Assembly (NCBI RefSeq): GCF_963675165.1 | Contig: NC_087393.1 | Location: 1,548,502 to 1,612,501, forward strand | Source of the DNA: Halichondria panicea | Lineage: Eukaryota > Porifera > Demospongiae > Suberitida > Halichondriidae | DNA: 64,000 nt | Reading direction: 5' to 3' | Shown: positions 561-44,746 of the stretch, piece after piece | Layout: each line of letters opens with the position of its first letter | Position numbering within the stretch: the first letter of the stretch is position 1 | Position numbers and translations under genes: made by a program | The notes under the pieces: model-generated | What the model was told of the DNA's origin: nothing | Database searches by the model: none | Seen by the model: only the letters and a program-made list of their open reading frames with translations

Positions 561-586
561 TTATTTTTCAAAACTTTTGAATCCAA

Positions 587-3500
587 ATGGAGCTGATTGG
601 ACTCCTTGACACTGTCAGCGAGCTTGAGCACACTGTCAGAGAGCTTGAGGAGGACCAGGAAGTCTGTTATGACCATGACGAGCCCAGTGATGACGATTTT
701 GAGACAGATCTGGAGAGTGATTCAGGTTTGTGTCATTGCACCATTAAATAGTGGTTGGGGAGGCAGCATTGTGATGCCCTAACGATATGTGGCCTCTTTT
801 TGGCGGAGGCGTCATGTGCATGCCTTTTGTGGCTCCTCCTACATTGTGTGAGCCTCTTTTTGGCGTCGCCTTGACTGCAGTACTGTACTGTACCCTAACC
901 CCCAGTTGTTAATGATATTCATAGCACCACACGCGTGCATTACGCCCACATATTGATATTCATGGTTGTTGTGGTTTGTTGGGCTCCTCCCACGAGCCTT
1001 TGATGTGGACGAGCCTTTTCCTCTGCTGTACTGTACCTATGTGCCCTAACCCCCCCCAGTAGTTAATTATATTCATAGCACCACTAGCGTGCGGTACGCC
1101 CACATAATGACATTCATGGTTGTTGTGGTTTGTTGGGCTCCTCCCACGAGCCTTTGATGTGGACGAGCCTTTTCCTCTGCTGTACTGTACCTATGTGCCC
1201 TAACCCCCCCCCCCCCCAGTAGTTAATGATATTCATAGCACCACTAGCGTGTGGTACGCCCACATAATGACATTCATGGTTGTTGTGGTTTGTTGGGCTC
1301 CTCCCACGAGCCTTTGATGGGGACGAGCCTTTTCCACGAGCCTTTTCCTCTGCTGTACTGTACCTGTGTGCCCTAACCCCCCCCCCCAGTAGTTAATTAT
1401 ATTCATAGCACCACACTCGTGCGGTACGCCCACGTAATGACATTCATGGTTGTTGTGGTTTGTTGGGCTCCTCCCACGAGCCTTTTCCTCTGCTGTACTG
1501 TACCTATGTGCCCTAACCCCCCCCCCCCAGTAGTTAATGATATTCATAGCACCACTAGCGTGTGGTACACCCACGTAATGACATTCATGGTTGTTGTGGT
1601 TTGTTGGGCTCCTCCCACGAGCCTTTGATGTGGACGAGCCTTTTCCTCTGCTGTACTGTACCTATGTGCCCTAACCCCCCCCCCCCCCAGTAGTTAATGA
1701 TATTCATAGCACCACTAGCGTGTGGTACGCCCACGTAATGACATTCATGGTTGTTGTGGTTTGTTGGGCTCCTCCCACGAGCCTTTGATGTGGACGAGCC
1801 TTTTCCTCTGCTGTACTGTACCTATGTGCCCTAACCCCCCCCCCCCCCAGTAGTTAATGATATTCATAGCACCACTAGCGTGTGGTACGCCCACGTAATG
1901 ACATTCATGGTTGTTGTGGTTTGTTGGGCTCCTCCCACGAGCCTTTGATGTGGACGAGCCTTTTCCTCTGCTGTACTGTACCTATGTGCCCTAACCCCCC
2001 CCCCCCAGTTGTTAATGATATTCATAGCACCACTAGCATGTGGTACGCCCACGTAATGACATTCATGGTTGTTGTGGTTTGTTGGGCTCCTCCCACGAGC
2101 CTTTGATGGGGACGAGCCTTTTCCTCTGCTGTACTGTACCTATGTGCCCTAACCCCCCCCAGTAGTTAATGATATTCATAGCACCACTAGCGTGCGGTAC
2201 GCCCACGTAATGACATTCATGGTTGTTGTGGTTTGTTGGGCTCCTCCCACGAGCCTTTGATGTGGACGAGCCTTTTCCTCTGCTGTACTGTACCTATGTG
2301 CCCTAAACCCCCCCCCCCCAGTAGTTAATGATATTCATAGCACCACTAGCGTGCGGTACGCCCACATAATGACATTCATGGTTGTTGTGGTTTGTTGGGC
2401 TCCTCCCACGAGCCTTTGATGTGGACGAGCCTTTTCCTCTGCTGTACTGTACCTATGTGCCCTAACCCCCCCCCCCCCCCCAGTAGTTAATGATATTCAT
2501 AGCACCACTAGCGTGTGGTACGCCCACATAATGACATTCATAGCCTGTCCCCCACCTGCACTGGCGAGCACTCTTGTGGTACTCTAATGATATTCATGCT
2601 TTGTTTCCGTGCAGATGCTGCAGTGGAGGATGATGACGAAATGGTCGATGGCATGGCTCCGACTCCCAAACGGAGGAAGCTGGCGAGGGACAATGGACTC
2701 CAAAAAGCTAAGTCCACAGGAAGATACCCCGTCTTTGGCGGTGTGGTCGGTCCTGTCGATCAACTTGATCCGTCTGTAACTCCATGCCTAGATTTTGTTA
2801 AGTTACTTTGGCCCGATAGTTTGTGTGAGTACATAGCCGAACAGACCAACCTGTACGCTAGGCAGTGTGGTGCTAAGGGTTGGTCAGCTACAAACAGTGC
2901 CGAATTGTGGGTGTTTTTGGGGATTGTACTAGAGATGGGCATTCATAGGCTCCCTGAAATTACGGACTACTGGTCCAAGGATCCCCTTTTAGGTGTACAA
3001 TGTGTGAGCAATGTAATGTCGCTCAAAAGGTTCCAAAGTTTATGGCGGTATCTGCACTGTGAGGACAATACGTCCATCACTGATGCACGTAAGGTAACTA
3101 GCAAGCTAAAAACTGTTTTAGAGACTCTTAAAGCCAACTACTTCATGAGGTATAATCCCAGTCAGGAGCTTTCCGTTGATGAGATGATGATAAAGTACAA
3201 GGGTCGTAAAAGCGGGAAAATTCATATGCCCAAGAAGCCTGTTAAACTGGGGTTCAAGGTATGGTGCTGCTCATGTTCATGCTGTGGGTATCTCTGTGTG
3301 TTTGATGTATACAGTGGTAAGCTCACCGATTCCTCTGGGAAAAAGATAGCTGTGAAAGGGCTTGTGAAAAATGTAGTCCATCGTTTACTCACTCCTTTTT
3401 ATGGTCATCAGCATGTTGTGTACATGGACAACTTTTACACGTCCGGTCCATTGATAGAAGAGTTGGCTAAGCAAAATGTGTTTACTGTCGGCACAATTTT

Positions 3501-4182
3501 GAAGAATGCTGCTGGTTTCCCAGCAAGTCTTAAGGATGTGGTACTCGACAAAGGTGACTATACGTCCATGACTGTTGGTGATATTTCTTACTCTATGTTT
3601 AACGACCGTAGAGTTGTGTCCTTTGCAACAAATGTGTTCCCTGACCATATGCCCCACACTGTAATGCGAATGCACAAAGACGGTACCCTACGCTCTCAGA
3701 GTGTCCCCCCCTGTCTCCCTGCATATAACATGTACATGGGAGGAGTTGACAATACAGGGCGTATGAGGAAAACCTATGGGTACGATAGAAAGTGTCGGCG
3801 GTATTGGTTCAGGATTTTCTTTCAATTCCTTGACGTTAGTGTGAATAATGCATACATTCTATACAGGCACAACTGTGTCAGGGTGGGTTCAAAGGCCATG
3901 CCTTTGAAAGGGTTTCGATTGGAACTAATTCATAGTCTATTGGGTGTGCCACGTACTCGTAGCAGTGCCTCAGGTCTGGCCAGTCTAAATATCGTTTTCC
4001 CCCCATCACAGGGCGCACGTGTGAGTGCAAATAGTGTCGGAGTGTCTCGTGGGCGCTGTCAAGTGTGTGTTCGGGAGAAGATCCCTAGCAGAGAGCAGCA
4101 ACACACTGCAATGGCATGTCCCCACTGTCGCATAAGAATATGCAAAGGACACTCTGTTATCGGACACACATGTGCTAGCTAA
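587..4182 (+). CDS. piggyBac-type transposase, copy 1 (two exons)
   Basis: Exon 1 is 587-725 and exon 2 is 2615-4182, joined across a 1889-bp GT-AG intron in phase 1, giving 568 aa. The N-terminus is acidic (DDDFETDLESDS) and is followed by a basic KRRK patch near residue 65. The piggyBac DDD triad is complete: SVDE (Asp about 235), YMDNF (Asp about 318) and GGVDN (Asp about 425). The C-terminus is a cysteine/histidine cluster (CQVC, CPHC, GHTC), as in piggyBac family Zn-binding tails. A polyadenylation signal follows at 4273. piggyBac transposases cut and paste DNA at TTAA sites in the nucleus. The frame is undamaged, so the protein could be active or domesticated. No terminal inverted repeats are visible near the gene, so this copy may not be mobile. 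Confidence 0.9.
886..2533 (+). repeat. ~160-bp minisatellite inside piggyBac intron 1 (copy 1)
   Basis: About ten units of roughly 140-170 bp. Each contains a C-run after GCCCTAA, TTAATGATATTCATAGCACCAC, a GTGCGGTACGCCCAC segment, GGTTGTTGTGGTTTGTTGGG and ACGAGCCTTTTCC. Units differ by a few substitutions and by the length of the C-run (7 to about 16). The array fills almost the whole intron, and the open frames across it are artefacts of repetition. Confidence 0.9.
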
Positions 4183-4272
4183 TGTGCTGTGTGACTGATT
4201 TTTGTTAGATGGTACTCTCCTGGTCTAAATTGGCCTTGGAGAGGGGAGGAAAGGGGTATTATTTCAATGATT

Positions 4273-4278
4273 AATAAA
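4273..4278 (+). terminator. Polyadenylation signal, piggyBac copy 1
   Basis: AATAAA lies about 90 bp after the stop codon, in a short 3' UTR before the second unit begins. Confidence 0.6.
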
Positions 4279-4370
4279 ATTGTGATAAAGAATTCAGTTG
4301 TATATGAGAGGCCCTAACCCACTCTGTTGTAAATTCTGTTGTAATTATTTTTCAAAACTTTTGAATCCAA

Positions 4371-7300
4371 ATGGAGCTGATTGGACTCCTTGACACTGTC
4401 AGCGAGCTTGAGCACACTGTCAGAGAGCTTGAGGAGGACCAGGAAGTCTGTTATGACCATGACGAGCCCAGTGATGACGATTTTGAGACAGATCTGGAGA
4501 GTGATTCAGGTTTGTGTCATTGCACCATTAAATAGTGGTTGGGGAGGCAGCATTGTGATGCCCTAACGATATGTGGCCTCTTTTTGGCGGAGGCGTCATG
4601 TGCATGCCTTTTGTGGCTCCTCCTACATTGTGTGAGCCTCTTTTTGGCGTCGCCTTGACTGCAGTACTGTACTGTACCCTAACCCCCAGTTGTTAATGAT
4701 ATTCATAGCACCACACGCGTGCATTACGCCCACATATTGATATTCATGGTTGTTGTGGTTTGTTGGGCTCCTCCCACGAGCCTTTGATGTGGACGAGCCT
4801 TTTCCTCTGCTGTACTGTACCTATGTGCCCTAACCCCCCCCAGTAGTTAATTATATTCATAGCACCACTAGCGTGCGGTACGCCCACATAATGACATTCA
4901 TGGTTGTTGTGGTTTGTTGGGCTCCTCCCACGAGCCTTTGATGTGGACGAGCCTTTTCCTCTGCTGTACTGTACCTATGTGCCCTAACCCCCCCCCCCCC
5001 AGTAGTTAATGATATTCATAGCACCACTAGCGTGTGGTACGCCCACATAATGACATTCATGGTTGTTGTGGTTTGTTGGGCTCCTCCCACGAGCCTTTGA
5101 TGGGGACGAGCCTTTTCCACGAGCCTTTTCCTCTGCTGTACTGTACCTGTGTGCCCTAACCCCCCCCCCCCCAGTAGTTAATTATATTCATAGCACCACA
5201 CTCGTGCGGTACGCCCACGTAATGACATTCATGGTTGTTGTGGTTTGTTGGGCTCCTCCCACGAGCCTTTTCCTCTGCTGTACTGTACCTATGTGCCCTA
5301 ACCCCCCCCCCCCAGTAGTTAATGATATTCATAGCACCACTAGCGTGTGGTACACCCACGTAATGACATTCATGGTTGTTGTGGTTTGTTGGGCTCCTCC
5401 CACGAGCCTTTGATGTGGACGAGCCTTTTCCTCTGCTGTACTGTACCTATGTGCCCTAACCCCCCCCCCAGTAGTTAATGATATTCATAGCACCACTAGC
5501 GTGTGGTACGCCCACGTAATGACATTCATGGTTGTTGTGGTTTGTTGGGCTCCTCCCACGAGCCTTTGATGTGGACGAGCCTTTTCCTCTGCTGTACTGT
5601 ACCTATGTGCCCTAACCCCCCCCCCCCCCAGTAGTTAATGATATTCATAGCACCACTAGCGTGTGGTACGCCCACGTAATGACATTCATGGTTGTTGTGG
5701 TTTGTTGGGCTCCTCCCACGAGCCTTTGATGTGGACGAGCCTTTTCCTCTGCTGTACTGTACCTATGTGCCCTAACCCCCCCCCCCCAGTTGTTAATGAT
5801 ATTCATAGCACCACTAGCATGTGGTACGCCCACGTAATGACATTCATGGTTGTTGTGGTTTGTTGGGCTCCTCCCACGAGCCTTTGATGGGGACGAGCCT
5901 TTTCCTCTGCTGTACTGTACCTATGTGCCCTAACCCCCCCCAGTAGTTAATGATATTCATAGCACCACTAGCGTGCGGTACGCCCACGTAATGACATTCA
6001 TGGTTGTTGTGGTTTGTTGGGCTCCTCCCACGAGCCTTTGATGTGGACGAGCCTTTTCCTCTGCTGTACTGTACCTATGTGGCCTAACCCCCCCCCCCCC
6101 AGTAGTTAATGATATTCATAGCACCACTAGCGTGCGGTACGCCCACATAATGACATTCATGGTTGTTGTGGTTTGTTGGGCTCCTCCCACGAGCCTTTGA
6201 TGTGGACGAGCCTTTTCCTCTGCTGTACTGTACCTATGTGCCCTAAACCCCCCCCCCAGTAGTTAATGATATTCATAGCACCACTAGCGTGCGGTACGCC
6301 CACATAATGACATTCATGGTTGTTGTGGTTTGTTGGGCTCCTCCCACGAGCCTTTGATGTGGACGAGCCTTTTCCTCTGCTGTACTGTACCTATGTGCCC
6401 TAACCCCCCCCCCCCCCAGTAGTTAATGATATTCATAGCACCACTAGCGTGTGGTACGCCCACATAATGACATTCATAGCCTGTCCCCCACCTGCACTGG
6501 CGAGCACTCTTGTGGTACTCTAATGATATTCATGCTTTGTTTCCGTGCAGATGCTGCAGTGGAGGATGATGACGAAATGGTCGATGGCATGGCTCCGACT
6601 CCCAAACGGAGGAAGCTGGCGAGGGACAATGGACTCCAAAAAGCTAAGTCCACAGGAAGATACCCCGTCTTTGGCGGTGTGGTCGGTCCTGTCGATCAAC
6701 TTGATCCGTCTGTAACTCCATGCCTAGATTTTGTTAAGTTACTTTGGCCCGATAGTTTGTGTGAGTACATAGCCGAACAGACCAACCTGTACGCTAGGCA
6801 GTGTGGTGCTAAGGGTTGGTCAGCTACAAACAGTGCCGAATTGTGGGTGTTTTTGGGGATTGTACTAGAGATGGGCATTCATAGGCTCCCTGAAATTACG
6901 GACTACTGGTCCAAGGATCCCCTTTTAGGTGTACAATGTGTGAGCAATGTAATGTCGCTCAAAAGGTTCCAAAGTTTATGGCGGTATCTGCACTGTGAGG
7001 ACAATACGTCCATCACTGATGCACGTAAGGTAACTAGCAAGCTAAAAACTGTTTTAGAGACTCTTAAAGCCAACTACTTCATGAGGTATAATCCCAGTCA
7101 GGAGCTTTCCGTTGATGAGATGATGATAAAGTACAAGGGTCGTAAAAGCGGGAAAATTCATATGCCCAAGAAGCCTGTTAAACTGGGGTTCAAGGTATGG
7201 TGCTGCTCATGTTCATGCTGTGGGTATCTCTGTGTGTTTGATGTATACAGTGGTAAGCTCACCGATTCCTCTGGGAAAAAGATAGCTGTGAAAGGGCTTG

Positions 7301-8118
7301 TGAAAAATGTAGTCCATCGTTTACTCACTCCTTTTTATGGTCATCAGCATGTTGTGTACATGGACAACTTTTACACGTCCGGTCCATTGATAGAAGAGTT
7401 GGCTAAGCAAAATGTGTTTACTGTCGGCACAATTTTGAAGAATGCTGCTGGTTTCCCAGCAAGTCTTAAGGATGTGGTACTCGACAAAGGTGACTATACG
7501 TCCATGACTGTTGGTGATATTTCTTACTCTATGTTTAACGACCGTAGAGTTGTGTCCTTTGCAACAAATGTGTTCCCTGACCATATGCCCCACACTGTAA
7601 TGCGAATGCACAAAGACGGTACCCTACGCTCTCAGAGTGTCCCCCCCTGTCTCCCTGCATATAACATGTACATGGGAGGAGTTGACAATACAGGGCGTAT
7701 GAGGAAAACCTATGGGTACGATAGAAAGTGTCGGCGGTATTGGTTCAGGATTTTCTTTCAATTCCTTGACGTTAGTGTGAATAATGCATACATTCTATAC
7801 AGGCACAACTGTGTCAGGGTGGGTTCAAAGGCCATGCCTTTGAAAGGGTTTCGATTGGAACTAATTCATAGTCTATTGGGTGTGCCACGTACTCGTAGCA
7901 GTGCCTCAGGTCTGGCCAGTCTAAATATCGTTTTCCCCCCATCACAGGGCGCACGTGTGAGTGCAAATAGTGTCGGAGTGTCTCGTGGGCGCTGTCAAGT
8001 GTGTGTTCGGGAGAAGATCCCTAGCAGAGAGCAGCAACACACTGCAATGGCATGTCCCCACTGTCGCATAAGAATATGCAAAGGACACTCTGTTATCGGA
8101 CACACATGTGCTAGCTAA
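4371..8118 (+). CDS. piggyBac-type transposase, copy 2 (two exons)
   Basis: Exon 1 is 4371-4509 and exon 2 is 6551-8118, encoding the same 568-aa protein as copy 1, with all three catalytic aspartates and the C-terminal Cys/His cluster. The intron is 2041 bp, 152 bp longer than in copy 1, because it holds one more minisatellite unit. Identical coding exons mean either a very recent duplication or homogenisation. A polyadenylation signal follows at 8209. Which copy, if either, is expressed cannot be told from sequence. Confidence 0.9.
4669..6478 (+). repeat. ~160-bp minisatellite inside piggyBac intron 1 (copy 2)
   Basis: Same repeat as in copy 1, about eleven units. Unit order and most variant positions match copy 1, with one added unit towards the 3' end, as expected after slippage or unequal exchange. 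Confidence 0.9.
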
Positions 8119-8208
8119 TGTGCTGTGTGACTGATTTTTGTTAGATGGTACTCTCCTGGTCTAAATTGGCCTTGGAGAGGGGAGGAAAGGGGTATTATTT
8201 CAATGATT

Positions 8209-8214
8209 AATAAA
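8209..8214 (+). terminator. Polyadenylation signal, piggyBac copy 2
   Basis: AATAAA about 90 bp after the stop codon, identical in context to the one after copy 1. Confidence 0.6.
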
Positions 8215-8325
8215 ATTGTGATAAAGAATTCAGTTGTATATGAGAGGCCCTAACCCACTCTGTTGTAAATTCTGTTGTAATTATAGAGAATAATAATTTG
8301 TAGATAACTGGTATTATTAATTATC

Positions 8326-32371: not shown

Positions 32372-35296
32372 TCACATGCCTAGGATCTTCTTGCCCCAGG
32401 CTACAATAGTGTCAGTGTCCACCACATCGTTCACAGTGGATCCAACGTCGTAGCCCATGCTCTGATACTCGATCAGCGAAAAGTTCTTATCTTTGCATTT
32501 GATATAAATGTCTTTGTTTGGGGCATAAAACTGGTTGTTTGATGTAAATGGAACTATTCCTTTTAGTGACTTGTCAGGATCGCAACTTCCAAATTCATAA
32601 ATGTTCGGATTTCCAATGATACAGGAATTGTTAGACCACACCTCACCCCAGCCGGACGGGAGAGTTTCGAGTGAGGCACCGTTGCTAGTAGCACAGAAGG
32701 GCTTGGAGAAGAATCCATCAACACCTTCTAACATCAAGCTGTGCACTGCGTCAGGATATATATACAGGTTGTACTTGACTACTTTTGTGTGTCCAAGGTA
32801 GTTCTTGTAGCCTCCATATATGAGGAAATTGTACGTGTCGTAATAGTAACAGGAGCCATCGTCATGATCTATTGGGAAAGTGGAGTGATAGTTATTTATG
32901 AGAAAGTTTTGCGTCAGATTAGTAGTGGCTGGTTGTAGAGACGGAGTCATTCCATCCTTCACCTTTGTGAGATATGGTTGTCTGTCCCACGAGTTAAATG
33001 GTCCATGATCGCCAGTCTCGCGAACCATGTTGAAACCCAGGTTACGAACTACATTGTGACCTCCTCCGAGTCCGTCATTAAAATTGATACCAGCTCGAGG
33101 TCCATTGAAGAACACATTGTTAGAGAATGTAGTTTGAGCAGTGAGAGCCTGAATGTATGCTGAAGTTTGCTTGCCGAATATTCCAATCTCTCGCATCACA
33201 TTGTTGGCAATAACATTTCCACGAGGTTGGTTGCCATTTGTTCCATCGATTAATTGTGTTGAGCCAACCGAAGCAATTGCGCTGTCACCTGTGAGAAAAA
33301 ATTCATTATTTTTAATGCTAGTGTTCCTCATGTAGTTGCTAAGGAAGATGGCGTTTCCACCAGGTGAGTCAAATCGACAGCTGTGAATTGTTAAACTCTC
33401 GACACCTTCTGCAAACACAGCCCCTCCTCTGTGAATGGACCAGTCTCCTCCGCTGGGAACCTCGTACGAATCAAAATACGTTGGTTGAGTGTGAGCAAAT
33501 GTAATATTCACGAAGGCAATATCAGAGACGGGTAAATCCATTGATCCTTTTACATTGAATAGTCTCTTGAGAACAGTTCCTATACCATTTGTAGGTAAAG
33601 TGCCATTTGGATAAAGATAAAGTTTCATTTCCGTTTCATTGTAAAACCATTCTCCAGGAGCGTCCAACTCTTCAAAAATGTTCTCAACGTACCATTCAGC
33701 ACCTCTTTTACAGCCTCTGGCCTCTTGATACCCACCATAGTCAAACTGAATCTCTCGCTTGGTGTTGTCCCTTCCTTTCACTGCAAACTGCCAGTTTCCC
33801 CAGTGTCCACAGTGAAACGCATGTATTACTCCCGTTTCTGGATGTGTCCATGTGCGATTAACGAATCCTTCCTGAGTAGAGTAAACCAGCCCCGTTGAGA
33901 TGATGTATGTTGAACCACCCCCTCCAGTGGGATGCGTCGTACCCCAGTAAGACTCTGGGGGGTCAAAAACAGATACAGGCCCACCAATTCCAATTTGAAA
34001 CTGTGGGAAATGTGTTCCATTTCTTTCTGGACTTTCAATATGTATCTCTTCAGGTTTGCCTTTATTTTGTGGTGGCATCCAGGAATCAGCTTTGGACACG
34101 TAGCCAGTCGGATTTGTGTGGAGACCCATAGTTTCTGGGTTCCCATCTGGATATCGAGCACGCACAGCTCTTCGTCCATTTATAAATAACGAGGTGAAAG
34201 GAGTTGGGGCTTGCTTGCTGAGGTCTGCCACCATTATGTTGAGTTTCTTGCCACTGATGTGACCTTGGTCTGTTGTGGGTACCCATAGTCCATCAGCTCT
34301 GAAGTAGCACATCTTTGCAAAGGCTCCTGTTGAAGGCCCATGCCATGTGTAGGCAAAGCAAGTGTTTTCCTGGGCACACGCGTTTTGGCAGTCATCAGCA
34401 CTGTTCATACTGCCAAAAAATGTTGCCATTGAACTACTATCACCTGGATTTAAAACTGCCCCATTGATAGCATTTATTCCGTTCATCTGTGGTTCCATTC
34501 TTTTTACATATTGGTTCCACTGGAAAGTGTATTGTTTTCCTCCACTTATGAGTGTTGGCTTCGATTTATCTCCTTGAATGGTAAGGTGGCTATCATCATG
34601 TCCTAGATCAAGTGTATCAGTTAGGTAGTAATCTCCGGGGGCCAGTATAATCATTCCTTCGTCTGTCAGCTTGGTCTTTTGACCTCGATACAAGTCGACA
34701 GCATGGTAAACAGTTTTCACTGGTTTGTCAGAAGTTCCAGGGTTGTTGTCATCTCCACTGTTAGAGTCAACATAAACAGTAATGTCAGGATTGCTACTTT
34801 TCAGAGCTTTATTTTCAGACAGGAGAGGTTTTTTGGAGCTTTTTGGAACTGGTGGAATGTTACAAGTTGCTAATTGCAGTGCATCGTAGGCGTAATGTAC
34901 TTGACTGTTTGGCTGCAAAAAAATTCATAAATGTTCTGACTTTCTGGAGAGAGTAGGATAGTATAGACTAATTTGTTATTATTATGGTAAATGGTGGAGC
35001 TCATCATCTATATACTGGTTATAAAATACTCAGATCTATCTACCACAAATGTGAAATACACCTTAGTCTAACCTTAATCCAATATAGCTACCTAGATCTA
35101 GTTAGATCTGTACCTGTTCAGTTAGAAGTTGGTTGGCAAAGTCCCAAGCCAGCTCCTTGACGGCACAGTCGAGCTTTGGGTCCACATTGACAGGCTTAGC
35201 ACTGGCTCTCGGTAGAGGGGAGCCACCAGAGCCTGTACACTGCACCTTTTGCAAGGCAAAGAGTAAGCTGCACACAATAAGTAGATTTAGTTTCAT
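32372..35296 (-). CDS. Secreted parallel beta-helix protein, copy C
   Basis: Exons 35296-35114 and 34912-32372 give 907 aa. An in-frame ATG three codons upstream (35305) is possible; 35296 is chosen because it aligns with copies A and B. Domain order is as in copy A. It groups with A by KSSNPDITVYVDS and the LPSGWGEVWSNNSC segment, but has private changes (SVFDPPESYW, NGTLPTNGIGTVL, KGSMDLPVSDIAF). The open frame is undamaged. Confidence 0.85.
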
Positions 35297-38024: not shown

Positions 38025-38037
38025 CATTGCCAGCAAT
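38025..38037 (+). repeat. Element 1 left terminal inverted repeat
   Basis: CATTGCCAGCAAT, matched in inverse at 44734-44746. Beyond 13 bp the two ends diverge, although TTGGACAC/CTGGACAC recurs about 20-30 bp in. Confidence 0.85.
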
Positions 38038-38280
38038 TGCCATTGTATTTTGGACACTATTGTTCTAGCATCCTGTCTAAATATTTGTTCTATTTATATG
38101 AAAATTCAAATATTACTCAATCATTTTAACTACTGCGGAAATAAATGCTACTATAGACTATTGTAGTGCGTGCGCAAGATCTTCGCTGAACTAGCTACGT
38201 TCACTGCACTGGTGCTGGTGAGTAATATTATTGTTTACCTGTTGGTTGAGCTCATGTAGACTTCTGTGGTAGATTCTATC

Positions 38281-38416
38281 CTGTGGCAGATCTCTCTAGT
38301 CACTGTTACAGGCCGGTACAAGTAATAACAAAATACTGAGCATGCAGTACTGCCAGCTCAGTATTTTGTTATTACTTTTACCGGCCTGTAACAGTGACTA
38401 GAGAGATCTACCACAG
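38281..38416. repeat. Near-perfect 136-bp palindrome in element 1
   Basis: Arms of about 58 bp, including CTCTCTAGTCACTGTTACAG, GGCCGGTA and AATAACAAAATACTGAG, around a loop of about 17 nt. It lies between the left terminus and the first gene. It may be a nested MITE or a structural site of the element. Confidence 0.75.
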
Positions 38417-38486
38417 TAAATAATTATATAGAACAGTACAGTATAGTAGTCAGTTCTCAGTCATATTCTTCTCAGTCCTGTTCTAG

Positions 38487-38864
38487 TTACAACACTTTTA
38501 CTAAATTAAATTTAACTTTCTTTCTTGGCTCTTTGTTGTCCGCTTCTTTTGTGCTTTCTTCTTTTGTTTTTTTGGCTCTAAATCCTAGCAACGTGTAGTC
38601 TGGATTTAAAACTTCTGACACCTGGACATCGTATGTTTGGCTGAGCCTCACAACTTTCTTTAAATAGTTCTGGGCCTTTTTCTGAGACCCCATCGGAAAA
38701 TAATGTGTTCCAGTATCATCTGCTGTTGTAAAATAAAATTGTTTTCCCTCAGTTCCCATCTTTACTAGCGACCCAATAGGAAAGGAGTTCCTGTGGTGCC
38801 TGATCTCTCGTAAGTCGGAGTCGATGTAGTACGGGTACGGGTGGAAGTGGCAGCAATTTCCCAT
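38487..38864 (-). CDS. Unknown small basic-tailed protein of element 1
   Basis: About 125 aa from the ATG at 38864 (MGNCCHFHPYPYYIDSDLRE); the same frame stays open upstream to an ATG at 39014. The later start is preferred because the upstream codons look like leader, and it leaves about 165 bp to the divergent chromodomain gene for a shared promoter. The C-terminus is strongly charged (KKTKEESTKEADNKEPRKKV). A central YFTTADDTGTHYFPMGSQKK has the look of a small beta-rich domain. I recognise no family. It has no stops and sits inside the transposon, so it is probably a real passenger gene. Confidence 0.55.
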   Translation of the reverse strand: MGNCCHFHPYPYYIDSDLREIRHHRNSFPIGSLVKMGTEGKQFYFTTADDTGTHYFPMGSQKKAQNYLKKVVRLSQTYDVQVSEVLNPDYTLLGFRAKKTKEESTKEADNKEPRKKVKFNLVKVL

Positions 38865-39029
38865 CTCAATTCTTTCTCTGTTCTTTTTTGTATAGTAATT
38901 TACTGATTCACATGACAGTAATAGCATGCAATCAATGGTAGTAAAGTGTGTCAAATGAATAGAGATAAAATCTTTATGGTCACTAATTATTAATCTTCCA
39001 GCAGACCTGTTCATGCAGATCGACCTGTT

Positions 39030-39854
39030 ATGGACTCGTCAAAGAGGCAACGACCTGAGAAAGGATACTATTCCTACCTCCATAATATAAGCTCGGCTGA
39101 CATGGACTTATCTAGCATGCGGGAAGCACGAGATGTGAGAACCACTCTGAGCTGTAAGTCTGATGACAGTCTGCCAGAAGGGGTCTTCCTTGTTGAGAGG
39201 ATAATTCATCATCGACTAACTAAGGTACGTAACATTTTATGATATATAGCCCTATACGATTGATTCTATTTCTAGGGGAAAACGGAGTATTTGGTAAAGT
39301 GGGCTGGTTACTCATTGGAACAGTCTTCATGGGTCGCTAAGGAAGATGTGACTATCTCTACTATCCAGTAAGATTATTAAGTATGGCATGGCAGTGCACT
39401 GTGTATTACTATAATTATATCTGCACATTTCCCCCCTTTCAGATCATACAATACACCACAAGCACCACATACCGAGCTTATAAGCGACGCAACAAGAAGA
39501 TTTGTTCTGTCCATTCAATGTAGTTTAAATTTAGGTACTGTAAAATCCTGTAATTTAACTATAGATTTCCGGCTAGATGTATTTCGTTACCTATTTAAAG
39601 ATCGAGGAACCCAAATGACCCGCGGAAAGCTCCAACTTCAACAAACTGATTTTAACGATGAATATTTTATAGGTAGTTGGTATATTTTGTATGATAGATA
39701 TGGCAATGGCTGCACAGTAGATTTTCCTATTGTAGTATGTCCTAGAATTAAGTATGGACCGAAAACATATAGAAATAGCAATGGTGAAATGTTAGAGTCA
39801 CCTAGACTACTATCTGAAATTGTATGTGTAAATCTGGTGAAAAAACGTTGTTGA
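39030..39854 (+). CDS. Chromodomain protein carried by element 1
   Basis: Three exons: 39030-39224, 39276-39367 and 39443-39854, giving 232 aa. A chromodomain spans about residues 58-97: FLVERIIHHRLTK, then TEYLVKWAGYSLEQSSWVA, with the aromatic positions and the KWxGY and SxW signatures of the fold. Chromodomains bind methylated histone tails. In mobile elements (chromoviruses, some integrases) they guide insertion to chromatin marks. The remaining about 135 residues (LDVFRYLFKDRG, FIGSWYILYDRYGNGCTVDF) have no domain I recognise. Split across an intron within the chromodomain. Likely role in target choice or silencing of the element; this is inference. Confidence 0.75.
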
Positions 39855-40142
39855 TCATTGTTAATTGTTAATTGTTAATGCATGCATGGCCCAACCTGAG
39901 CAGCCAATACGCACTATGTGACTCATAACTAACTGCTTCAGGCCAATTCTCTACCATAATGCTTTTAATGACTCTCAAACAAATGGCTGGGTCAACACGC
40001 ATCCCGACTTACAGCTAACCTTGTCAGCCTTCCATTAGAGAGCACGGATTTGCCTACAATTATACATAGACTATGTCATAGTTAAAGCTAGCACCAGATT
40101 TAAACATGAACGAATGAATGTAAGACATAATTAGTCACATAG

Positions 40143-41269
40143 TCATTCAACATTAAGAGAAATGGTTTCTAAGCTAGGACGGTCATGAGCATGATAAGAA
40201 AGACATTCCTTAATTACATGGGCAAGTTCAGTTGACTTAATTACAATGGAGTTCATCTTCTTCATTATTCTACCTAATGAGTATATATCGCTCTGTGTGC
40301 TCTGTAAAACAAGCCCATCGCGGAGGTCTGGAGCTACTTGAGTGTGTTCTTTTATGTAAATAACTTTCTGTTCCTCGGTCAGGCAGTACTTCTTAGCATG
40401 CTTTTCTTTACATGCCTTTCCAAAATCCACAATACATGGCCGGATACATTCTAACAAAGTAGTCCCTAATACTACGTTGTCTACTTTAAGATCATTGTGA
40501 AGAATACTCAGCTTGTGCATGTATGATAGACCATCACAAATTTGGATCAGTATTTGCATCCATGTCTTAGGGCTTAATTTAATTTCGTTAGTCGAATACA
40601 AGGCAGAATATAATGAAACTTGTTGCTGCTTCACGCTTACATTAGACATTACTAAAGCTCTCCTGGTGGAACAAATACCAAAACAGTGTGGTATATAAGG
40701 GCTGGAATTTAATGTAAGTAATATACTGGCTTCATGCCTAATCGATTCGATTGAGGAGTCGGAAGTAAATGTTTTGACACAGACGTCAAAACACTCTTTA
40801 AAAATCATACGAGAGCATGTTCCAAACCGACCATTTCCTATATGAACATCACCACCCCCATCTGCTAAACATTTCTCACTTATCTCTGGAACTACAGTAA
40901 CTCCTCGCATAATATCAGCATTCGTACACATTCTTGGAGTTGCCTTGGGTAGACTGATTGCACTCGTCTTCATGGCTGCTGTTAGTAACTTTAGTGGTCG
41001 TTGGTGACTGCAGGATGTTCCCAGAGTTCCTGTCCGTAATTGCTTAGCTCGATACACGTTGAGTTCCCTGTATGAACAATATTATTTACTGGCTGTTAAT
41101 CAGCAACTTACAGTTTATAATCTATTGCCTTCTTCTTCCAATTCTGAACATTTTTCTCGGCACATTCAAGGCTCTTCTTCTCCATACACAGCTGCTTGCC
41201 AATTTTGTCAACTCTAGCTTTTCGATTGAGCCTCTTGAGCTTGGATCTTGAGAATGTCTGGTCAGCCAT
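40143..41269 (-). CDS. Protein kinase carried by element 1
   Basis: Two exons on the minus strand, 41269-41112 and 41067-40143, giving 360 aa. A basic, coiled-coil-prone N-terminus (KLKRLNRKARVDKIGKQL) precedes a complete kinase domain: glycine loop GNGRFG (about 130-135), ATP-binding lysine VCVKTF (Lys151), helix-C glutamate RHEA (Glu165), catalytic loop LHNDLKVDN (Asp245, HND in place of HRD), metal-binding DFG (Asp267), activation-segment end VAPDL and SDIYSLG. Every catalytic residue is present, so it should be active. The HNDLK/VDFGKA signature resembles multi-copy kinases I know from cnidarian and other aquatic invertebrate genomes. It is divergent from, and 214 bp away from, the transposase gene. 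Confidence 0.85.
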
Positions 41270-41483
41270 TTTGTAATAAGTCTAAGAGAACCAGAGGTCG
41301 CAAAATACCCGCCATAATGCATCTGAGAAGTGTTATCATGCTATTGAATGAGTACTGTGGTTAATTTAGTGGGTGATAACACCGCAGCCTATTCACCCGC
41401 CCACTCATATTGACATGGCTAATTAATTTTGTTACATAACAGCTCAAGGGACCTTTTGTTCCATTATCCCGGGCCTCCTAGCT
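41270..41483. promoter_or_regulatory. Putative bidirectional promoter, kinase and transposase
   Basis: 214 bp separate the two start codons, so both genes must be driven from here. No clear TATA box is visible. Confidence 0.45.
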
Positions 41484-44063
41484 ATGGCAGTAAACAAGCA
41501 GTCCAGAAGAGCAGAGAGCCTGTCCATCACCATCTCAAATTCAGCAAAGAAGTACTCTGACTTCAGCCACACAGAACCACAAGTACAGCCAAACTTCTCT
41601 CTCTCTATTCCTATCGAGTTGCTGCATCATTGGTACATGAACAAGAAGGCAGAAGAGACATTCATTAGCTTAGTTAATAGCATGGTAACAATAGTTAAAC
41701 TAGCACAAAGCGATCGTCTGGAGAAAAGGCTTGCAGAACAAGCTAGCAAGGTAGCAAGAAGGATACGGGGGCTAAAAGGAAGAAGGAGGTATGCCGTACT
41801 TGCTGGAGAATACAACCTCTTCGTGCTTGATGGAGAAGCAGAATCGTATTCTGAAATTGAGCAGCAACTATCCACTGAATCTCCACAGCCAACAACAATC
41901 CCCGAAACAAGTAGACCTACCACAGCACACATCAACAAAGGCAAAAAAGTTCACGAGGTATCACCACGACAGGTAAAACGAAAGCTAGCACACTGTAAGA
42001 GCTCTGCAGAGCAAGCGCTTTGGTTTTGTGAATCATTCGGTCTTCAGCCAGAATCTTTAGAGCTACGCAAACAGACAGGATCTCCCATCAAATTCAATTT
42101 TTTATCTAGCCCATCTCACAAGCCACAACATCAAACGCCAGCTCTTTCACCAAACGATTCTGCGAGGGTACAGCAAGCTCTTTATGTACTTGACAGGTTT
42201 GCTGTGAGTGACGAAGCTTATCATGAATTGAGCGTCGCATCTGATTTACCACCACTGTACCGAATCAAGGATGCTCGCCTCTCAATTAACAACTCTCTCG
42301 ACATCCGACATCTCGAAGGTCCTTATCCTGGTGCTTATAGACCACCGAAAGCTGCAATCCAGGAAGAGCTAGCTAAGATCGTAAGTAAAGAAGAAATTAT
42401 ACATTATTATTATGGATTATTATTTTAGGTTCATTCAGGGAAAGCTATCACCCAACCAGTAAAAGTAAAACTCAGTGGTGACGGAGCCAGATTCACAAGA
42501 TCATCCAATATCATACTTCTCTCATTTGCATTTCCAGAAATTCAAGACAATGTTTTATCAGGCATGGGTAAGCTTAACAATAAAAATATTAAACGAGAAA
42601 GTGGTGAAAATATTTTTATATTGACATTCATACAGGCAATCATACTTTTGCTGGCCTAAAAGCCGAAGAGTCGTATGAAACAATTAGTTCAGGACTATCT
42701 GAGGTATTGAAGGAGTTGAACGACATCATTTCACACCCACTACTCACTGTTGATGAAACAGAGTACCGCCTTGAGTTTTTCCTGGGTAGTGATTACAAGG
42801 TGAGAATGTATAGTTAATTACTGACTATAAAAATTGCATTATTAGTTTCTTTTACTGAGTATGGGCCTCAACAAAGCAACCTCTATGTACGCTTGTGTCT
42901 GGTGTACCATCAAGAAGGATGAAAGGTATATCTATAATTATTATATGCTTAAACCTAGCTTCCCCATTTGCCGCTATAGGTGGGATATGTCAAAGGATAG
43001 GGCTGACTACACCGTAACAAATGCAAGAACATTGAGTTCCCTACAAGCAAAAGGCGCACTTCCCAGCAGTAAACCAGCAAGTGTACGACTAGGATCAATT
43101 ACAACACCACTACTGAACATAGAGCCAGACCATATAATACCCGATGAGCTACACCTACTCCTACGTATAGCTGACGTTTTAACAAGAAATCTCATTCTAG
43201 AGATAGTGGCATCTGCTAAACAAGACAGACAAGGAAACGCACATATACTCACTCACCTACAAACACTACAGACGATCGTTAAAGACTGTGGTATCACGTT
43301 CAGGGTATGGGAAGCAAGGGGTCCAGATGGCAAAGCTTCTGGACATTACGAATGGACATCACTGCAGGGGAACGACACCAAGAAGTTTCTGGAACGTCTC
43401 CCAGTGAGGTTTGCTGACCTACTGAAGGAAGAAATTCAAGCTAAAATGGCCCAACTTTGGACAGTGAGTACTAATTAAATTTCCCTTCGCATTTTACAAA
43501 CATAATTATTTATATGGTCTGGCTCTATAGGAATTTCTCTCTGTGTATAAGATGGTTTCTAGCTGGACTCCACCTCCCAGTGAAGTGGTTGAGCAAAAGG
43601 TATAGTGTTAGTTTACTAGTAGGGAGAACCATTGTATCTAATTTACTATAATCTATCATGATAGGCGAAAGACTGGATAAGGCTTTTCTTGAGCTTGAAG
43701 CACAAGTGTCAAGGGTTTCAGGAAAAGAATATTACGCCCTATATGCACACACTGGTCTTTCACTTCCCTTACTTTATTTCAAAATACGGAAATGTCAAGA
43801 TGTTTAGTGGACAAGGTGAGTTCGAGTGTAAAGAGATAACATTTTAATCACCTTTTTCTCTAGGGGTGGAGAAAAATAATGATGACGCCAAGAGACACTA
43901 CTTCTCCAGTAATCTGCATGACCCAGTGGGGGAGGTTCTGAAAGCTGAAGCGAGAATAGACGAGACATCACAATTTAAGCGAAAGAAACGAAAGTACATA
44001 CGAAAAACTCCATTAGATTTAGTAGACATGAACAAACAGCCACGACTTGACTCTGAATCATGA
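41484..44063 (+). CDS. Transposase-like protein with RNase H-fold motifs (element 1)
   Basis: Eight exons, approximately 41484-42380, 42428-42567, 42638-42799, 42847-42926, 42980-43463, 43532-43600, 43666-43816 and 43865-44063, join in frame to about 726 aa. After a low-complexity N-terminus, exon 2 has KLSGDGARF, exon 3 ends FFLGSDYK, exon 4 has a knuckle-like YACVWCTIKKDER, and exon 5 has IIPDELHLLLRI. The order SGDG, GSDYK, CxWC, DELH is what I know from an unnamed protein family widespread in cnidarians, sponges and hydrozoans. The three aspartates fit a DDE-type catalytic core. Exons 7-8 (NITPYMHTLVFHFPYF, GQGVEKNNDDAK) match the family C-terminus, which ends in a basic KRKKRKYIRK tail. 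Confidence 0.75.
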
Positions 44064-44733
44064 TTAATTCTACCCAACATAATAATATAGTATACTATAT
44101 ATCCTGATAGATTGTACACATTTACTATCTTCAAGTAAATGACTGCTAGCCTATACTTACTTGCAGCCATATACACTCACTTTACATTGCTGGTACATTG
44201 CGATTAATGGGGAATTCCCCAAATTAGTGGCTCTACGCAGCTCTTGGGTATGTGTAGATAATGCGATACGTCATTGATAATTGTGGATTTTTTGACAAAA
44301 CTGGACACATTTTGGAACCGCTTAGTCCACTTTATATCGAGCAGCAGCCGCTTTAAGCAGCAGAGTAGGCCGTATATTTTTGCTGGCAATCGGCAAAAAT
44401 GAAAATATATGTGTAAGAATGCCGCAAATCAAACACAAAAATACAAAATAATCAAATTTTACAATACAATACACAAGACAAGCGCTGAAACATTGATCAA
44501 CAAAAGCAGTTAGGGAACTTATACAAGCTGGCTGGCTAGCTTCTTGTGGGATTCCAAGGTTAGCTAAGGTGTATTTCTTCTTCTTTGTATCGGCAAATCA
44601 ACTGAAAGTAGCTCCCTACAAGGGAAAAAGGGAAGCATAGCCTTTGGTCTCATAAGAACACATATAAAATCATACCGTAATATACAGAAAATTACTAACT
44701 GATTTACTGACATATTTTAATTGGTGTCCAGTC
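44064..44733. other. Element 1 right end, no gene
   Basis: No coding region recognised between the transposase stop and the right terminal repeat. AT-rich, possible 3' UTR and subterminal sequence. Confidence 0.6.
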
Positions 44734-44746
44734 ATTGCTGGCAATG
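44734..44746 (-). repeat. Element 1 right terminal inverted repeat
   Basis: ATTGCTGGCAATG, inverse of the left end at 38025. Confidence 0.85.

Follow-up and report, generated by a model that had tools for sequence, protein, structure and literature searches.

We analyzed 64,000 nucleotides of the genome of the sponge Halichondria panicea (the window; contig NC_087393.1, positions 1,548,502 to 1,612,501) and found, at window positions 38025-44746, a complete transposon of 6722 bp that inserts without target-site duplication and that carries genes for a protein kinase, a chromodomain protein and an orphan protein besides a probable RAG1-type transposase. In the reading that we favor, to which we give a probability of roughly 0.7, this is an autonomous DNA transposon with a DDE transposase of the RAG1/CMCT type (CACTA-Mirage-Chapaev-Transib/RAG1 clade) and with functional passengers. 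RAG1-type transposases are the origin of V(D)J recombination. What is noteworthy here is the combination of a putative enzyme of this type with a zero-length duplication and a likely chromatin-reader partner, brought together with a one-turn spacer asymmetry in a single, recently active unit; accessory genes alone have precedent. The element opens the questions of how a DDE enzyme yields a zero-length stagger and of whether the pairing of a RAG1-type transposase with a histone-mark reader evolved more than once.

Boundaries and copies of the element

When the 400-bp flanks of the element were joined, they matched window positions 34432-35225 (795 columns, 99% identity), with zero bases gained or missing at the insertion point with respect to this paralogue. 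The insertion lies inside the coding region of one member of a tandem gene family. Comparison of the ends across copies gave terminal inverted repeats of 13 bp that match perfectly, CATTGCCAGCAAT on the left (38025-38037, forward strand) and ATTGCTGGCAATG on the right, where the reverse complement of the left repeat occupies 44734-44746 (reverse strand). A preliminary description of this DNA had delimited the element from sister gene copies and reported matching 13-bp ends, and both the empty site and the other copies confirm it.

A search of the genome (131 Mb, 39 contigs) recovered 14 uninterrupted full-length copies of the 6722-bp unit at 99-100% identity (mean pairwise substitution, 0.1%) and two further complete copies, each split by the later insertion of another element. 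The 14 continuous copies begin and end at the identical terminal base within unrelated flanks, and CA..TG termini are present in 16/16 complete copies. Truncated or decayed relatives were found on contigs 1, 3, 5, 9 and 13. The exact 13-mer occurs 43 times, 32 of these being the paired ends of the 16 complete copies, while three lie in damaged copies and eight are isolated, a smaller number than the 21 hits for the reversed control. The shorter tag CATTGCC, proposed earlier as diagnostic of the ends, has about 16,700 hits genome-wide and is not specific. Every exact 13-bp end pair surrounds a complete four-gene unit, and no short or gene-deleted derivatives with such ends were found anywhere in the genome; therefore, the element spread as a whole unit. 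It moved recently, with its four genes, to at least 16 sites. In the window copy each of the four is open (727, about 360, 232 and at least 125 amino acids [aa]), as the preliminary description had stated, and its own caveat that the set might exist at this locus only does not apply, since the full set is present in the 15 other complete copies. The near identity of the copies and their exact 13-bp ends make the element practical to assay. No relatives were found in viral contigs, and the literature that was searched gave no account of the element or of any RAG1-type element bearing both a kinase and a chromodomain gene.

Interior to the 13-mer, both ends hold a second motif, TGGACAC(T/C)A, found as TGGACACTA at 38051-38059 (forward strand), 13 bp from the left terminal repeat, and as TGGACACCA at 44722-44730 (reverse strand), 3 bp from the right one. 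Left and right motifs are identical at 8/9 positions and their spacers are offset by exactly 10 bp, a match equaled at an offset of 10-11 bp by 0.4% of random segment pairs from the element interior (p = 0.004). This unequal spacing is notable in that it seems to recall the 12/23 arrangement of RAG signals, a likeness based on one family and hence a lead rather than proof.

The stretch from the left end to the fourth gene contains a near-perfect hairpin of 171 nucleotides (38262-38432, forward strand; about -112 kcal/mol as RNA, z = -21). Genome-wide, it is confined to copies of the element, portions of it being retained in the decayed copies on contigs 3 and 9, and we therefore rejected an origin from a nested foldback miniature inverted-repeat transposable element. 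The hairpin may be a source or precursor of small RNAs, for which its length is sufficient, or may contribute to the structure of the left end.

The inserts that split two of the complete copies (C17:2197160-2214434 and C12:4254125-4272523, on contigs 17 and 12) measure about 10.5 and 11.7 kb, and both lie where the kinase and transposase genes diverge, in the short spacer that separates them. An open reading frame (ORF) resembling a tyrosine recombinase is present in one insert and an ORF of the piggyBac type in the other. Two old copies (C3:3521566-3615551 and C13:2521740-2552992) owe their decay mostly to numerous small deletions and show little substitution, so that exact blocks are interleaved with short gaps.

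Target sites

The target-site duplication of the element is 0 bp, which we consider firm because of the exact empty site and because no consistent direct repeat flanks the 16 insertions (the lone long repeat, in a (TG)n tract, carries no information). This is its most unusual structural feature, and the preliminary description had missed it. The target sites share a base preference on one side, with G at position -4 from the left end in 12/16 sites (p = 5e-6; 200 position-by-base tests) and TG at positions -5/-4 in half of them. No corresponding base preference was seen on the right flank at the 16 sites.

The probable transposase and its resemblance to RAG1

The transposase gene spans 41484-44063 on the forward strand and is predicted to have eight exons (41484-42380, 42429-42567, 42636-42799, 42846-42925, 42980-43463, 43531-43599, 43665-43815 and 43864-44063) separated by seven introns of 46-68 bp, all of them GT-AG. 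It is intact in 13 of the 14 continuous copies; the copy at C6:5075734 has a stop at codon 33. An unguided local alignment of the 727-aa product to the mouse RAG1 core, the sequence of which was confirmed from PDB, gave z scores of 8.7-9.3 with 0 shuffles reaching the score, whereas six control proteins, including a piggyBac transposase, gave z scores of -1.5 to 1.7 against the same core. The alignment puts D398 in register with the D of RAG1 GYDEK, C417-x2-C420 with RAG1 CTLC, D482ELH with RAG1 DALH, H639-x4-H644 with RAG1 HKTLAH, and E664 with the E of RAG1 ASEGNE; in RAG1, the aligned positions are established as D708, the zinc ligands and E962. For the first catalytic D, the probable residue is D317, an assignment made by eye (SGDGAR versus RAG1 ESCDGMGD). 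A phmmer search of PDB with the C-terminal 85 aa returned RAG1 as the first hit and as six of the seven hits, at a weak E value of about 1.1, and a Pfam search of the transposase matched no domain.

The spliced 727-aa protein is the probable transposase of the element, its putative catalytic domain being encoded by seven of the exons. The statement in the preliminary description that no named superfamily fits was too strong for this protein, given its recognizable RAG1/CMCT-type catalytic features.

Passenger genes

The chromodomain protein (39030-39854, forward strand) has 232 aa encoded in three exons (39030-39224, 39276-39367 and 39443-39854). Its chromodomain (Pfam Chromo, 2e-12) has CBX2, CBX6 and HP1 as best PDB relatives, and comparison with HP1 by eye shows F, W and Y at the positions of the aromatic cage. 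The C-terminal 136 residues had no Pfam match. A structure prediction for the third exon had a low predicted local distance difference test score (pLDDT, 49) and Foldseek matches that were not meaningful. The gene is intact in 14/14 continuous copies.

The kinase gene lies on the reverse strand (40143-41269; exons 41112-41269 and 40143-41067) and codes for about 360 aa with a complete, conventional protein kinase domain (Pfam Pkinase, 8e-22), in which the K, E, D, N and DFG residues can be recognized by eye (VCVK, HNDLKVDN, DFG). The nearest solved structures, all remote, belong to tyrosine-kinase-like enzymes, LRRK2 among them. Of the 14 continuous copies, 10 have an intact kinase gene; a 4-bp frameshift is common to three others and a private 1-bp deletion affects the fourth. 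The split copy on contig 17 has the kinase frameshift as well, so that the same dead kinase is found in four copies at four different sites, and hence a copy can move without an intact kinase in cis.

The fourth gene (38487-38864, reverse strand) codes for at least 125 aa (the ORF is open to 39038). Among the 14 continuous copies it is full length in 11, has an in-frame 15-bp deletion in two and is frameshifted in one. Its product belongs to no family recognized by Pfam or by a PDB sequence search, and neither search supported a methyl-CpG-binding domain, a candidate that we considered. A structure prediction was equally unhelpful (pLDDT of 44, with no meaningful Foldseek matches).

An old relative on contig 13 (C13:3140806-3145427), delineated from search matches, has the chromodomain (forward), kinase (reverse) and transposase (forward) genes in the same order and at similar spacing, with aa identities of about 35%, 57-72% and 50%, respectively. 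The fourth gene was undetected at this locus even with a loose threshold. Decayed fragments on contigs 3 and 13 retain remains of the kinase and chromodomain genes, and those on contig 3 also of the fourth gene. These data, from one genome and, for the contig 13 relative, from search matches alone, argue for a stable association of kinase, chromodomain and transposase genes that is older than the present burst. The preliminary description had allowed that related elements might carry the transposase alone, which is not so in this relative.

Comparison with known systems

The CMCT clade is characterized by zinc ligands of the form C2C/H(3-4)H, CA..TG termini and target duplications of 2-5 bp (PMC12730594). 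The element resembles it in its CA..TG termini and its C-x2-C/H-x4-H zinc ligands, and differs in its 13-bp ends, in its kinase, chromodomain and orphan genes and in a similarity too remote for a named superfamily. It probably derives from, and works like, a CMCT/RAG1-type transposon; since it makes no duplication of 2-5 bp, we do not count it among the ordinary members of the named CMCT superfamilies.

RAG-like transposons encode RAG2L with a PHD finger, and the sea urchin RAG2L PHD binds methylated H3K4 (PMC7204232). The spacers are unequal both in RAG signals (12/23) and in ProtoRAG ends (27/31) (PMC8289069). As in ProtoRAG and other RAG-like elements, the element described here appears to combine a RAG1-type transposase with a separate histone-mark reader, a chromodomain instead of the RAG2L PHD, and its ends are bipartite with unequal spacers. 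However, its gene order is different, its duplication is of 0 instead of 5 bp, its ends begin with CATTGCC and are not of the CAC type, and its spacers are 13/3 instead of 12/23 or 27/31. No RAG2-like kelch domain was found by Pfam in the other three proteins.

The preliminary description had considered accessory genes to be rare in DNA transposons, which was an overstatement. IS3EU of rust fungi carries alpha-kinase and TET/JBP passengers, TET/JBP or SET genes occur in many DNA-transposon superfamilies (PMC12730594), RAG2L is a further precedent, and Kolobok lineages carry nucleases and a helicase (PMC9587614). The element is similar to IS3EU in having a kinase gene opposite to the transposase together with a passenger related to chromatin or DNA modification, but its kinase is a conventional protein kinase, its transposase and ends are unrelated, and IS3EU makes 6-bp duplications. 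The 0-bp duplication is shared with some members among Spy and the other PHIS elements, although the transposase family differs, with no similarity seen, and Pfam found no IS5/Harbinger-type DDE domain in the proteins of the element.

Proposed mechanism and alternative explanations

In the mechanism that we propose, the transposase would recognize bipartite ends, in which the 13-mer is followed by TGGACAC(T/C)A after 13 bp at one end and 3 bp at the other, a difference of one helical turn, would cut exactly at CA/TG, and would join both ends directly opposite one another in the target. With less certainty, the chromodomain protein may be a partner of the transposase that tethers it to, or shields it from, histone-methylated silent chromatin, a role modeled on the PHD finger of RAG2, which links RAG1 to histone marks. 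The kinase could regulate the transposase, host repair or silencing, and it could do so in trans. That the passengers have a function at all we infer, and the tether or shield and regulator roles are speculative. The idea in the preliminary description that the gene set senses the state of the host has no direct support, with the kinase broken in 5/16 complete copies and one frameshift found at four sites; the mobile element itself, its exact ends and the recurring passengers stood. A bolder extension, tentative and in our estimate clearly less probable than its opposite, is that of a separate RAG1-fold lineage with 0-bp integration, in which the chromodomain protein would serve for targeting, as a subunit like RAG2, and the kinase would be a switch, in an independent parallel to RAG1/RAG2 and the 12/23 rule.

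Several points speak against an autonomous RAG1/CMCT-type transposon with functional passengers. The similarity to RAG1 is remote (no Pfam hit; E value of about 1 in PDB), the alignment algorithm left D317 unaligned, and the exon structures are predictions from sequence. The zero-length duplication departs from the 2-5 bp of CMCT (PMC12730594) and from the RAG/Transib duplications, mostly of 5 bp (PMC7204232), and from two symmetric strand transfers one would not expect an asymmetric target preference. The broken kinases also count here, and they fit the view of inert passengers, in which the chance capture of host kinase and chromodomain genes gave the element a cargo that it simply carries, as do the frameshifted fourth gene and the frequency of host gene capture by DNA transposons (PMC12730594). 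Yet the kinase and chromodomain genes have kept their order and orientation beside a transposase only about 50% identical, decayed copies also hold their remains, the chromodomain gene is intact in every continuous copy, and gene-deleted derivatives with exact ends are missing, all of which makes mere carriage unlikely.

The target asymmetry and the lack of a duplication could also reflect another chemistry, that of a PHIS/Spy-like DDE enzyme, a circular intermediate or a tyrosine recombinase, the resemblance to RAG1 being superficial; Harbinger relatives can yield 0-bp duplications, and known CMCT members do not (PMC12730594). We consider this improbable, since the unguided alignment brought the second catalytic D, both zinc-ligand pairs, DxLH and the E into register at a z score far above the controls, and no IS5-type or recombinase domain was hit in Pfam. 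It is less probable still that the 727-aa protein is not the transposase and that the unit is cargo mobilized in trans by an element with the same ends. Either the copy on contig 6 whose transposase gene has a stop at codon 33 moved with the help of another copy, or it decayed once it had landed; however, paired 13-bp ends occur only around this unit, and the protein shows RAG1-type catalytic features. Segmental duplication or an assembly artifact, for which the high identity of the copies and nothing further could be cited, is refuted by 16 unrelated flanks, identical end points and the exact empty site.

Other observations in the window and the genome

The CATTGCC 7-mer is about three times commoner than its reversed control (8438 and 8305 versus about 2780 hits per strand), and many of the listed hits occur in pairs on one strand at distances of about 570 or 780 bp, which suggests other abundant repeat families that have no relation to the element. 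At window positions 561-8284 there are two intact piggyBac-type ORFs with identical translations (Pfam DDE_Tnp_1_7, 9e-69), placed head to tail 3.9 kb apart and with inner tandem repeats. The 11.7-kb insert in the split copy on contig 12 equals about three such periods, which suggests piggyBac-type tandem multimers like those described for KolobokP (PMC9587614). On the reverse strand, positions 25915-58397 hold a five-copy tandem array of a gene whose beta-helix product resembles GH141 and has a PAN-like region; one copy is interrupted by the transposon.

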